Origin: Bacillota bacterium
GTDB lineage: Bacteria; Bacillota; UBA5301
Length of the DNA stretch: 47,408 nucleotides
Reading direction: 5' to 3'
Assembly (NCBI GenBank): GCA_012735535.1
Contig: JAAYHC010000033.1
Span: 1-47,408 of the forward strand
This document shows positions 230 through 22,242 of this stretch, piece after piece. The notes under the pieces were generated by a model. The model was not told the origin of the DNA. It did no database searches and saw nothing but the letters and a program-made list of their open reading frames with translations. Both the position numbers and the translations under genes were made by a program. Numbering within the stretch: the stretch's first letter is position 1; each line of letters begins with the position of its first letter.

Positions 230-949
230 ATGTTGCTCCTACGGGTGATATTAGTGATTGCCATCGGTTTGCTTGGGTTTAATGCAAACCCTTGTAAGGC
301 CGCTTCAATCGTCGGATCGTATCATGACTTGTCATACATCGATAGAGTCCATGTCGAGAGCTGGGTCAGCGTTTACGACAACTTCGAGCAAGTCTGCGTA
401 TATTGTCACACTCCCCACGGTGCCAACCAAAATGTAGCTGCCCTTTGGAACCGCAGCCTGCCTGACCCCGGTAGTTACACTCTCTATGAAAGTGATACCC
501 TCGATGCACCTGCTCGGGCACCTAGTCCGATCAGCCTCTTGTGTTTAAGTTGTCACGACGGCACCATCGTAGTTGACTCCGTGCTTAACATGCCTCGCGG
601 CGCTACCCGGGGAACTAAGCATTCGCGGATGAAAGAAGACTGGGACTCAATTTATGATTGCGCCGCTTGCCATGACGGATGGATGGGACCGGGGACCGAT
701 TTTACGGGCACATTTTTGGGGTAGGATTTCAGTAATGATCATCCGGTTTCTATCGAATACTCGACTGCTGACCCGGGGTTAAAACCCCGGCCTGCTAATG
801 GTGTTTTCGCTAATGGGGTCAAATTGGTGGACAATAAAGTTGAGTGTGTTTCTTGTCACGACCCACATGATCCTGATCCGCAGCGCAAGCCGTTTTTGCG
901 GGTCTCTAATGCGGGTAGCGCTTTATGCTATACTTGCCATGATAAATGA
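230..949 (+). pseudogene. Exported pentaheme c-type cytochrome (doubled CXXCH type) with an in-frame TAG at 722-724
   Basis: The reading frame from ATG 230 to TGA 947-949 is open except for one amber codon, codon 165. The start is set by GGAAGGAG at 214-221, 8 bases upstream. A signal peptide covers about residues 1-25 (MLLLRVILVIAIGLLGF, ending near CKAAS). Three heme motifs lie before the TAG (CVYCH, CLSCH, CAACH) and two after it (CVSCH, CYTCH). The 74 codons after the TAG continue the family pattern without a shift: DFSNDHPVS follows the stop directly and matches the G-x-D-x-SNDHP motif common in paired-CXXCH cytochromes. The product would be an electron carrier outside the cytoplasmic membrane. 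As read with the standard code, it is a 164-residue triheme protein with its last two hemes lost. Possible explanations are a recent nonsense mutation, a sequencing error, or amber readthrough. No start codon with an RBS is visible for separate translation of the 3' part. Confidence 0.75.
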
Positions 950-11890: not shown

Positions 11891-12529
11891 ATGGACTTCA
11901 CCGTAATTATTCCAGTTTTTAACGAAGCTCTGACCATCGGAAAAGTTCTTGAAGCCGTCCTGGCCGCTAAAGAACAAGATCAGCGAATTAAAGAGGTTAT
12001 TGTTGTAGATGATGGATCCGTCGATGAAACCTGGCAAGTGGTCAAAGCATATGGGGTTACCCTAGTGCGCCTCGAGGTAAATAAGGGTAAAGGCGCTGCC
12101 CTAACCGCTGGGGTGCGGGCCGCTCAGACCACGGGTGTGCTTTTTATTGACGGTGATTTGATCGGTTTAACACCGCGCCATCTTTCCCAACTGATTGATC
12201 CGGTTGCCGATGGTTCCGCCCGGATGACGTTGGGCATTTTTAAGTCCGGTCGGATCGCGACCGATTTAGCCCAGCAGGTTGCCCCGGATATCACCGGGCA
12301 GCGTGCGATGCGTAAAGATGATTTTCTTTTGGTCAAGGGGCTTGAACGTACCAGGTATGGGGTAGATATCGCCTTGACCAATTTCGCCCACAAAATGTGT
12401 TGGCCGATCAAAAAAGTACCGCTCAGCGGTGTAACCCAGGTCATGAAAGAAGAAAAGTACGGTCTAATTAAAGGTACGGCCGCTCGGCTCCGGATGTATC
12501 TGGATATCTTGCGCAATATTCGTGTATAA
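11891..12529 (+). CDS. Family 2 glycosyltransferase
   Basis: This is a soluble GT-A fold transferase of 212 residues. The N terminus has the sugar-nucleotide motif TVIIPVFNEALTIGKVLE, followed by VVDDGSVDET and the DxD-type metal site FIDGDLIG. No membrane segment is evident, so it may act at the inner face of the membrane on a lipid-linked or small acceptor. The acceptor is unknown. ATG 11891 is taken over the adjacent TTG 11888. The gene sits between proS and polC, where most Firmicutes have no extra gene, and its end overlaps or abuts the polC start region. Confidence 0.85.
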   Translation: MDFTVIIPVFNEALTIGKVLEAVLAAKEQDQRIKEVIVVDDGSVDETWQVVKAYGVTLVRLEVNKGKGAALTAGVRAAQTTGVLFIDGDLIGLTPRHLSQLIDPVADGSARMTLGIFKSGRIATDLAQQVAPDITGQRAMRKDDFLLVKGLERTRYGVDIALTNFAHKMCWPIKKVPLSGVTQVMKEEKYGLIKGTAARLRMYLDILRNIRV

Positions 12530-12545
12530 GGCTGGTGAAGATTCT

Positions 12546-15500
12546 GTGAGTTTGGCCGAGGAGAGGATGGCTGAGCGACCGGCGACCTGGTCGGAAACTT
12601 GGTCACGCCTCCTAGGCGAATGCCTGACCCAGCAGGAGAGGCAGCGCTGGGGAGGGCGTTTGTCACTTAATCAGGTAATAGTGTCACCCGAGTCCGGGTC
12701 ATGGCATCTGGTGGTTGAGGGGCCGGCAAGTTTTCCGCAGCAAGCCCGCAACCGGATGCTCTCATTTTTGAGTCAATATTTTTCCCAATACGCTCTGACG
12801 ACCTGTGAATACCGTGAGATGGCCCAGTCGTGCTCAGAACTGGATGACTGGGAATATCTCCAACAGTTGGAGACGATCAAACAGACTAAGGTGTCGGCGG
12901 AGAAGGGCTTGTACGGTACTTACCGCCAGGTGGAGCAGGTTTCAATTGCCGAGATCGAGCACGGTGGCGACGAAGTGACCGTCATCGGTGAGGTCTTGGC
13001 GGTGGAGCAGCGCGAGTTGCGGAATCGGAAGCAATTGTTGACCATTGACCTAACTGATTATACGGATTCGATCACTGTTAAAGTCATTGGCGGTGAGGAG
13101 ATCGCCAGGCTGGCCGAGCAAGTGCGTGTTGGCACTTGGCTCAAGGTGGTTGGGACGACCGAAACCGATCAGTATTTGCAAGAAGTCGTCCTTACGCCGT
13201 GCTTTATCGACACTGCCGCCGCTCCGGCTCAAAAACAAGATAATGCGACCCAAAAGCGCGTTGAGTTACACTTACACACGAAAATGAGCGCCATGGACGG
13301 ATTGGTTAATGTCGAGGAAGCGGTTGCTTTGGCCGCTGCCTGGGGGCATCCGGCCATCGCCATCACCGACCATGGTGTTGTCCAGGCCTATCCCGATGCT
13401 TATGCTGCCGGCCAAAAATACGGGATTAAGATTATCTACGGACTCGAAGGTTATCTCTGCGAAGGTGACCAGGATCCGGAGTTTGAACGTACCAATCACA
13501 TTCTTATCCTGGTCAAAAACGCCACCGGCTTAAAAAATCTGTATAAGCTGGTCTCGGTGTCACACTTAGAATACTTTTACCGTCATCCGCGTATTCCGCG
13601 CGCCGTTTTGGAGAAACATCGGGAAGGGCTTTTGCTCGGAACGGCTTGTGAGATCGGGGAACTGTACCGGGCCGTGGTTGCCGGTCAACCGGAGGAGAAA
13701 CTCCTGCAGATCGCGAGTTTTTATGATTTCTTAGAGATTCAGCCCCTAGGCAATAACGAGTTTATGGTCCGGGATGGTAAAGCTACGCTGGAGGATCTCA
13801 AGAATTACAACCGTACGATCTGTCGGTTGGCCGAGCAATTGGGCAAACCGGTTGTCGCAACCGGGGATGTCCATTTCCTCCGACCACAAGATGAAGTTTT
13901 CCGCCGGATTCTCATGTACGGTCAGGGTTATGCGGATGCGGAGCGGCAAGCTCCGTTGTATTTCCGGACGACCGACGAGATGCTGGCTGAATTCAGCTAT
14001 CTAGGCGAGGAACTGGCGCACAAGGTTGTGGTTGAATATCCGCGGCAGATCGCCGACAGCATCGAAGAGGTCCTCCCGGTCCCTTTGGAGTTTTGCGGGC
14101 CGCAAATACCGGGTGCAGCCGAGGACCTCAGGCGGATCTGTTTGGAGACGGCTCAGTCTCGGTATGGCAACCCGCTGCCGGAGATTGTCCGGCAGCGGTT
14201 GGAGCGCGAACTCGATTCGATTATCTCCAATGGCTTTGCCGAACTGTACATGATCGCCCATAAGCTGGTCCAGAAAAGCTTGGCCGACGGTTATCTGGTC
14301 GGTTCGCGCGGAAGCGTAGGCTCTTCACTGGCAGCTACCATGGCCAATATTACCGAGGTCAACCCCCTGCCGCCCCATTATTTGTGCCCCAAGTGCCGGT
14401 ATTCCGAATTTGTCACTGATGGGTCGGTTAACTCCGGTGTCGACTTGCCGGCGCGCGATTGCCCGCGTTGTCAACACCCCTTGGCCAAAGAGGGGCACGA
14501 TATTCCCTTCGAAACTTTCTTGGGTTTTGATGGGGATAAGGTGCCGGATATCGATCTCAACTTTTCCGGAACCTATCAGCCGGAGGTGCACAAATATACC
14601 GAGGAGTTATTTGGCGAGAGCTATGTCTACCGAGCCGGCACCATCGCCACCCTCGCCGACCGAACCGCCTATGGTTTTGTGCGGAAATACCTCGATGATA
14701 AGGGGATTGTGAAGCGTAAAGCAGAGATTAATCGGCTGGTCGCCGGTTGTTCAGGAGTTAAACGGACCACCGGTCAGCACCCGGGAGGGTTAATGATTGT
14801 ACCCCACGGCCGGGAAATCTATGATTTTTGTCCGATTCAACGCCCGGCTAATGACACCAAATCTAATATTATCACTACTCATTTTGACTATAAGGCGATT
14901 AGCAGTCGCCTGGTCAAGCTGGATATCCTCGGGCATGACGATCCGACGGTGATTAGGATGCTTCAGGATATGACCGGGGTGAAGCCGCAGCAGATTCCGC
15001 TGGATGATCCCGAAACGATGGCGATCTTTTCCGGACTTGAGCCGCTCGGACTCTCCGAGTATGATTTGGGCTCTAAGGTTGGGACCTTCGGAGTGCCGGA
15101 GTTTGGGACGCGCTTTGTGCGACAGATGCTGGAAGACACCAGACCTAAGACCTTCGGAGAACTGATCCGGATTAGCGGTCTTTCGCATGGGACCGATGTC
15201 TGGTTGAATAACGCCCAAACCCTTATTCAGAGTGGACAAGCCACTCTGGCTCAGGTTATTTCGACCCGGGATGACATTATGCTTCATTTGATCCAAAAAG
15301 GTGTCGATCCGCTGAAGTCATTCAAAGTGATGGAAAGGGTGCGCAAGGGCAAAGGTCTGGATGAGAGCGATGTTGAGCTCTTGAAGCAAGCCGGGGTGGA
15401 AGACTGGTTTATTGAGTCTTGTCGCAAGATTAAGTACCTGTTTCCGAAAGCGCACGCGGTGGCCTATGTTATGATGGCTTTCCGCATCGCTTGGTTCAAG

Positions 15501-15971
15501 GTGCACTATCCGGAAGCTTTCTACGCCGCCTATTTTTCGGTGCGGGCCGATGAATTCGACATCAGCTATGTTGAGGGCGGGCTGAGCACGGTTAACTCAC
15601 TGATCCAGGAGTATGAAGCCAAAGGAAACGCGGCCACGGCCCGGGAGAAGAATATTTTAACTATTCTCGAGGTGGCCAAAGAAGCTTTGCTCCGGGGGAT
15701 AACCTTTGGCCAAGTTGATCTATACCTCAGTGATGCGACTGTCTTTCAGGTCAGCGGGCATAAGCTGATTCCACCCTTTATCAGTATTGCCGGCTTAGGG
15801 GAGGCTGCGGCCAACGCGATCGTTAAAGCTAGGGCTGAATCACCCTTCACTTCTTTAGAAGATCTGCGGCTAAGGGCCGGCTTGTCGAAGAATGTTATCG
15901 AGATGCTCAAAGACCATGGGACCTGTGCCAAGCTTCCGGAGAGCAATCAGATGAATCTTTTTGGTTTCTAG
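12546..15971 (+). CDS. polC: DNA polymerase III alpha subunit, PolC type, lacking the exonuclease domain
   Basis: This is the replicative polymerase of low-GC Gram-positives. In order it has an N-terminal domain, an OB fold (about residues 140-225), a PHP domain beginning ELHLHTKMSAMDG, and the polymerase palm with FDGDKVPDIDLNFSGTYQ, which carries the catalytic Asp pair. A zinc-binding segment (CPKCRYSEF ... CPRC) and C-terminal helix-hairpin-helix and tail regions follow. PHP metal ligands are present (HLH; ITDHG; GDVHFL). In classical PolC the 3'-5' exonuclease is inserted in the PHP domain after the EGYL-type strand. Here EGYLCEGDQD runs within a few residues into NHILILVKNATGLKNLYKLV, and no DxE exonuclease motif occurs anywhere. 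Total length is about 1141 residues against roughly 1430 for Bacillus PolC. GTG 12546 is preferred (GGTGAAG upstream); the frame is open from GTG 12522. Confidence 0.95.
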   Translation: MSLAEERMAERPATWSETWSRLLGECLTQQERQRWGGRLSLNQVIVSPESGSWHLVVEGPASFPQQARNRMLSFLSQYFSQYALTTCEYREMAQSCSELDDWEYLQQLETIKQTKVSAEKGLYGTYRQVEQVSIAEIEHGGDEVTVIGEVLAVEQRELRNRKQLLTIDLTDYTDSITVKVIGGEEIARLAEQVRVGTWLKVVGTTETDQYLQEVVLTPCFIDTAAAPAQKQDNATQKRVELHLHTKMSAMDGLVNVEEAVALAAAWGHPAIAITDHGVVQAYPDAYAAGQKYGIKIIYGLEGYLCEGDQDPEFERTNHILILVKNATGLKNLYKLVSVSHLEYFYRHPRIPRAVLEKHREGLLLGTACEIGELYRAVVAGQPEEKLLQIASFYDFLEIQPLGNNEFMVRDGKATLEDLKNYNRTICRLAEQLGKPVVATGDVHFLRPQDEVFRRILMYGQGYADAERQAPLYFRTTDEMLAEFSYLGEELAHKVVVEYPRQIADSIEEVLPVPLEFCGPQIPGAAEDLRRICLETAQSRYGNPLPEIVRQRLERELDSIISNGFAELYMIAHKLVQKSLADGYLVGSRGSVGSSLAATMANITEVNPLPPHYLCPKCRYSEFVTDGSVNSGVDLPARDCPRCQHPLAKEGHDIPFETFLGFDGDKVPDIDLNFSGTYQPEVHKYTEELFGESYVYRAGTIATLADRTAYGFVRKYLDDKGIVKRKAEINRLVAGCSGVKRTTGQHPGGLMIVPHGREIYDFCPIQRPANDTKSNIITTHFDYKAISSRLVKLDILGHDDPTVIRMLQDMTGVKPQQIPLDDPETMAIFSGLEPLGLSEYDLGSKVGTFGVPEFGTRFVRQMLEDTRPKTFGELIRISGLSHGTDVWLNNAQTLIQSGQATLAQVISTRDDIMLHLIQKGVDPLKSFKVMERVRKGKGLDESDVELLKQAGVEDWFIESCRKIKYLFPKAHAVAYVMMAFRIAWFKVHYPEAFYAAYFSVRADEFDISYVEGGLSTVNSLIQEYEAKGNAATAREKNILTILEVAKEALLRGITFGQVDLYLSDATVFQVSGHKLIPPFISIAGLGEAAANAIVKARAESPFTSLEDLRLRAGLSKNVIEMLKDHGTCAKLPESNQMNLFGF

Positions 15972-21270: not shown

Positions 21271-22242
21271 GTGCATTCGATCGGCTCAGCACAAGAGATA
21301 CTTACGCAGCTCAAAGCAGGAGATAACTATCTCCTGCTCTCACATGTTCATCCCGACGGGGATAGTGTCGGGTCATTGCTCGGGCTTGCCGACCTCTTAC
21401 AGCAGATGGGCAAGCAGGTGACGATTGCTTCTACGGAAGAGGTCGCTGCGACCTTTCACTTTATCCCCGGAATTGAACAGGTTCGGGTCGGCGAAACCGA
21501 GTTGGCCGCCGATTACGAATATGTTGTGGCGGTAGATGTTTCCGACTACCGGCGGGTCGGTTCTTTGCGTTCTTACCTTGAGCGGGCTCAACTGGTCATC
21601 AACATCGACCATCATTTGGGTAACGAGTTTGGCCGGCCGAAATATGTGCGAACCAGCGCCTGCGCTACCGGTGAACTAATCTATGAGTTGTTTGAATTGG
21701 CCGGTCTTGAGCCTAGTTACGGCGCGGCCATCGCCTTATACACTGCGATTGTAACCGATACCGGCCGATTTAGCCATGCAAATACTACTGCCGAGGCTTT
21801 TCGTATTGCGGCCAATCTTGTTAAGCTCGGGGTAGAGCCGTATCAGATCTTTCACCAGATCTATCAGCGTAAAGACCTCGGTTTTATCAGATTGCTCGGC
21901 AAAGTGCTGGCCAGCTTGCAGACTGCTTGTGGCGGCCGGGTTGTCTACATTATCATGGATCAGGCAATGCTTACCGAGTATTCACCCGATCTGGGCGATA
22001 GTGAAAATTACATCGCCTATGCCCAAATGGTCGAAGGGGTCAAAATTGCGTTGCTATTTCGCCAGTTAGCCGATGGACGCACCAAAGTTAGTTGGCGATC
22101 GGTTCCCGGTGTTGACGTGAGTGTTTTTGCGCGGGAGTTCGGCGGAGGAGGCCATGCCAATGCCGCCGGCTGTGAAATCGATCTCGAACCGCAGCAGGCA
22201 GCGGAAAAAGTCCTCACTTTCTTGGACAAGCATTTTTGCTAG
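21271..22242 (+). CDS. nrnA: DHH-family nanoRNase / pAp phosphatase
   Basis: NrnA degrades 2-5 nt RNAs to mononucleotides and dephosphorylates pAp. The DHH domain shows LLLSHVHPDGDSVGSLLG, VAVDVSDYRR and INIDHHLGN. The DHHA1 substrate-binding domain ends with EFGGGGHANAAGCEI. Length is 323 residues. The start is GTG 21271. The gene lies between rbfA and truB, a common order in Firmicutes and relatives. Confidence 0.95.
   Translation: MHSIGSAQEILTQLKAGDNYLLLSHVHPDGDSVGSLLGLADLLQQMGKQVTIASTEEVAATFHFIPGIEQVRVGETELAADYEYVVAVDVSDYRRVGSLRSYLERAQLVINIDHHLGNEFGRPKYVRTSACATGELIYELFELAGLEPSYGAAIALYTAIVTDTGRFSHANTTAEAFRIAANLVKLGVEPYQIFHQIYQRKDLGFIRLLGKVLASLQTACGGRVVYIIMDQAMLTEYSPDLGDSENYIAYAQMVEGVKIALLFRQLADGRTKVSWRSVPGVDVSVFAREFGGGGHANAAGCEIDLEPQQAAEKVLTFLDKHFC

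Follow-up and report, generated by a model that had tools for sequence, protein, structure and literature searches.

In OmcE filaments, a histidine of one subunit coordinates a haem of the next subunit (PMC9473688), and entry 7TFS is given, in an excerpt of PMC12954529, as the tetrahaem OmcE filament of Geobacter. In Geobacter, dN/dS is elevated in multihaem cytochromes, above all in those of the outer surface, among them omcE, and these genes are frequently gained and lost (PMC12977616). In-frame stops are reportedly widespread among bacterial genes that are otherwise intact; on average they evolve under purifying selection, and they are mostly short-lived and partly artefactual (PMC7918605). 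Here, we compare these systems with a cytochrome gene that is interrupted by a single TAG and lies in a 47,408-nucleotide stretch of DNA, referred to as the window, which is the whole of contig C81 in a 94-contig draft genome.

All features of the locus are on the plus strand. The contig starts with a 5S rRNA (1–117; Rfam RF00001, 110 bits), a ribosome-binding-site-like GGAAGGAG is read at 214–221, and the interrupted gene occupies 230–949, with 239 codons when the TAG is counted as a sense codon. As the preliminary description stated, the frame from ATG 230 to TGA 947–949 is open except for one interior stop, the TAG at 722–724, which is codon 165. Three CxxCH motifs lie before the stop: CVYCH at residues 56–60 (395–409), CLSCH at residues 105–109 (542–556) and CAACH at residues 144–148 (659–673), the last of which is missing in four-haem members of the family. 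The 74 codons 3′ of the TAG encode a conserved C-terminus, and the motifs reported there earlier are indeed found in the same frame: SNDHPVS with the invariant His171 at residues 168–174 (731–751), CVSCH at residues 206–210 (845–859) and CYTCH at residues 233–237 (926–940). The next gene is rpsB (1208–1981; Pfam Ribosomal_S2), which is also downstream of the orthologue in genome G001. Both flanks of the TAG align with the same homologous proteins, showing 64–67% identity to the nearest orthologue; thus, this is one interrupted gene and not a chance open frame. Regarding translational restart after the stop, this route was rejected: there is no in-frame ATG, the only candidates are TTG 824, GTG 827 and TTG 896, and a restart product would carry no export signal.

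The five CxxCH motifs agree with the five-haem cytochrome of the preliminary description, and the family assignment can be narrowed: by its motifs and matches, the predicted protein is a five-haem member of the OmcE-like cytochromes. In a phmmer search, the window protein matches 7tfs_A with E = 5.5e-25 over residues 18–126 and 158–239, on both sides of the stop, and it matches 9yuq_N, again on both sides, with E = 7.6e-22. If the TAG is read through, the four core CxxCH motifs start at residues 56, 105, 206 and 233. Outside these motifs, His63, His171 and His213 are invariant and His32 is nearly invariant in the aligned family, and these four residues are the putative distal haem ligands. The N-terminus is hydrophobic in the translation, with a helix at residues 2–16 in an otherwise poor model (mean pLDDT of 40.6). 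The extra CxxCH at residues 144–148 defines a five-haem subset that comprises the window protein and those of L009, L017, L002, L010, L024, L018, L088 and L089. This variant is present in the window genome, in relatives of the same phylum and in two records labelled Nitrospirae/Nitrospiria, and an H..M motif is usually located upstream of the extra CxxCH (residues 129–132 in the window protein). The window genome itself holds a paralogue at 49% identity, as well as other relatives. A scan of a wider collection of genome contigs returned distant relatives only, the best at 41% identity.

To place the stop in context, we compared the gene with its closest relative in G001, a genome of another genus in the same family, in which the orthologue shows 67% identity. 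The gene order is 5S rRNA, cytochrome, rpsB and tsf in the window, and 5S rRNA, orthologous cytochrome, 5S fragment, second multihaem cytochrome, rpsB and tsf in G001, where further genes beyond tsf are also in common with the window; some of these gene names were checked with Pfam, and the remainder were assigned from translated starts. At this G001 locus (L097, contig C180, 1–1300), the orthologue lies between the 5S rRNA and a second, 5′-truncated 5S-like fragment. The orthologue is uninterrupted, with ACA (Thr) at codon 165. Comparison of this codon in related genomes, which the preliminary description had proposed, shows no stop in any of the 22 aligned homologues, each of which has a sense codon there. 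Threonine is the commonest residue in the column, and Gln, Asn, Lys, Arg, Ser, Val, Ile and Tyr also occur; thus, the site tolerates change.

The sequence after the stop is well preserved. Identity to the G001 orthologue is 75% after the stop, compared with 65% before it, and the post-stop differences fall at 24, 6 and 53% by first, second and third codon position. Synonymous sites are saturated, so these differences do not yield a computable dN/dS value. Against most outgroups, the post-stop region of the window is at least as similar as that of the orthologue itself, and at the post-stop columns where at least 85% of the homologues agree, the window keeps 14 of 15 residues. The preliminary description had seen no further decay in the remaining 74 codons, and the identity and the conserved columns bear this out. 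It follows that the stop is young, tolerated or not real, although the decay data alone do not separate these three possibilities.

Taken together, the intact syntenic orthologue, the undecayed post-stop region and the lack of a stop in any of the aligned homologues favour one of the options raised at the outset, a recent nonsense change. The TAG is probably a recent, lineage-specific nonsense allele, and it would represent either a polymorphism among strains or a pseudogene of very recent origin. Two observations sit uneasily with a recent nonsense change. First, the undecayed flank fits an artefact or a tolerated read-through equally well. Second, TAG matches the orthologue codon at none of its three positions, so at least one unseen intermediate is needed. 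The preliminary description had proposed a single-base change from AAG, CAG or GAG. Such a last step is possible, but it requires an intermediate codon that is not seen in the nearest relatives, since the orthologue has ACA and the own-genome paralogue has ACG, which is two bases from TAG.

The codon distance also bears on a second explanation, in which the TAG is a consensus base error or a minority-strain base in the 94-contig draft and the real gene is intact. We regard this as unlikely, though as a reading that deserves serious weight. Such an error would look like what is seen here, a lone stop in a frame that is intact elsewhere, with undecayed sequence behind it; artefacts are noted to account for a considerable part of apparent in-frame stops (PMC7918605), and in this draft the contig breaks off at a repeated 5S rRNA some 600 bases from the TAG. 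However, a single wrong base would have to hit a codon that had already changed, because the orthologue codon is three bases off, and the cytochrome gene contains no other stop or frameshift. The site is also within unique sequence. The first 126 bases are common to contigs C81 and C23, both of which start at 5S rRNA, and this shared start suggests that the assembly broke at a repeat. The TAG lies about 600 bases inside the unique sequence, and the collapse of an rRNA repeat is an unlikely source of the TAG base, as the sequence common to the two contigs extends no further than base 126. On contig C23 of the same draft (L119, 1–1400), a multihaem cytochrome gene and an opposite-strand rhodanese-like gene come after the 5S rRNA at the contig end. 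Elsewhere in the window, 12522–15971 encodes a PolC-like DNA polymerase III alpha that is short, at 1149 amino acids, and has PHP and polymerase domains; no exonuclease domain match was found in it at E 1e-8.

A third explanation is a dedicated decoding of TAG by pyrrolysine, by a tRNA-Sec with a CUA anticodon or by a suppressor tRNA. The decoding machinery of the genome makes this highly improbable, and the read-through by pyrrolysine or another suppressor that was put forward initially is not borne out. For PylS, TIGR02367 scores 22.1 bits at best in the window genome, where the cut-off is 178, sub-threshold matches of the same kind occur in 13 of 14 control genomes, and none of seven relatives has a PylS above the cut-off. 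The biosynthesis search covered PylD, whose best TIGR03911 score of 21.7 bits is below the cut-off of 150, and the search for methylamine methyltransferases covered MttB (PF06253), which gave no match. Pyrrolysine decoding was rejected on these grounds. Among 38 tRNAs, all of which read sense codons, and a tRNA-Sec, there is no CUA anticodon, and relaxing the tRNA search to E = 10 added only the tRNA-Sec and a 20-base fragment. The anticodon of the tRNA-Sec is UCA, which rules it out as an amber reader. The draft tRNA set is incomplete, with no tRNA-Trp and none called as tRNA-Ile (one CAU tRNA may be that of isoleucine); given this, the negative result for a CUA tRNA is strong but not final. 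The one observation in favour of a dedicated decoding is the in-frame position, and a suppressor tRNA could have stayed unassembled, since tRNA-Trp is missing too. As a separate observation, within 192–500 of contig C69 (L078) a selD-like frame with an in-frame TGA lies shortly after the tRNA-Sec, so that UGA is probably decoded as selenocysteine in this genome.

Stop usage argues in the same direction. RF1 is intact (prfA, 558 bits), and in a 423 kb sample, about 22% of the genome, 216 coding-like open reading frames end in TAA (100), TAG (66, about 30%) or TGA (50). Of 27 pairs of coding-like frames in the same reading frame, 8 have TAG as the stop between them, which matches the proportion that ordinary usage predicts. 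TAG is thus a common terminator and is not in excess between same-frame coding-like frames, and its genome-wide reassignment was rejected because RF1 is present and TAG ends 66 of the 216 frames. TAG also closes 15 of the 43 larger frames taken as genes on the plus strand of the window. The preliminary description had counted more than ten such genes, of which frr, polC, infB, rbfA, truB and ribF were checked with Pfam, and the TAG-ended gene at 21271 that it called nrnA is a DHH/DHHA1 gene. The presence of RF1, the lack of any amber decoding found and the sense codon in the relatives together point to an ordinary loss of function or a sequence error, not to a new code.

A real TAG could also be read through usefully by near-cognate decoding or by an unusual sense tRNA, yielding a little full-length cytochrome. 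We consider this very unlikely. The conserved post-stop residues are kept, position 165 accepts many residues, and frequent read-through has been proposed for bacterial in-frame stops (PMC7918605); however, a recent change predicts the same conservation, RF1 is present, and there is no conserved stop in the relatives. Some 50 bases past the TAG, the coding sequence contains a GC-rich hairpin (CCCGGGG...CCCCGG) at about 772–790. As a conserved recoding element it was rejected, because the region (z = −1.99) is barely stronger than shuffled sequence and the orthologue, whose sequence differs there, does not share it. The wider proposal that the amber is tolerated or used, whether by inefficient read-through or by a suppressor tRNA missing from the draft, so that a nanowire-type cytochrome is made full-length at a low level, is likewise very unlikely. 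If it were true, the TAG would serve to limit the dose of an extracellular protein that is costly to make.

Under the preferred reading, a recent nonsense allele, the predicted secreted cytochrome would have acquired a premature amber at a variable position, 165 of 239. RF1 would terminate translation at the TAG, leaving a 164-residue fragment that keeps three haem motifs and loses motifs 4 and 5 together with His171 and His213. Such a fragment should be unable to build a haem chain or a filament, since haem ligation in OmcE runs from subunit to subunit (PMC9473688), and it would effectively represent a loss-of-function allele. The loss may be tolerable because the genome holds several paralogues, which are presumably redundant.

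The locus provides a check on over-interpretation, as a stop in an intact, conserved frame can resemble recoding. Here, the syntenic orthologue and the decoding machinery of the genome turn an apparent recoding into an ordinary allele or a sequence error. If the stop is real, it is another instance of the turnover of nanowire-type cytochromes, in this case in a PolC-carrying genome.

Comparison with known systems shows both shared features and differences. With OmcE of Geobacter sulfurreducens (7TFS), the window protein shares, on both sides of the stop, the order of the motifs CxxCHTPH, CxSCHDG, LGxDxSNDHPV, CxSCHxxHD, PFLR and C-terminal GSxLCxxCHxK. In contrast to OmcE, it has a fifth CxxCH at residues 144–148, its gene carries a TAG, and its assembly into filaments is putative. 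The motif order is also that of 9YUQ, a 'putative multiheme cytochrome c' with 16 chains; 9YUQ is uninterrupted, and the fifth CxxCH at residues 144–148 of the window protein is outside the stretches aligned to it. The pyrrolysine genes mtmB, mtbB and mttB likewise have an in-frame UAG flanked on either side by homologous sequence, whereas the window gene does not encode a methylamine methyltransferase, its homologues have a sense codon at the site, and no PylS, PylD, CUA tRNA or MttB was found in its genome. Finally, Belinky et al. (2021; PMC7918605) focus on stops common to at least two species, whereas the window TAG is seen in one genome; their cases share with the window gene a single stop, a frame kept on both sides and a sequence free of decay.
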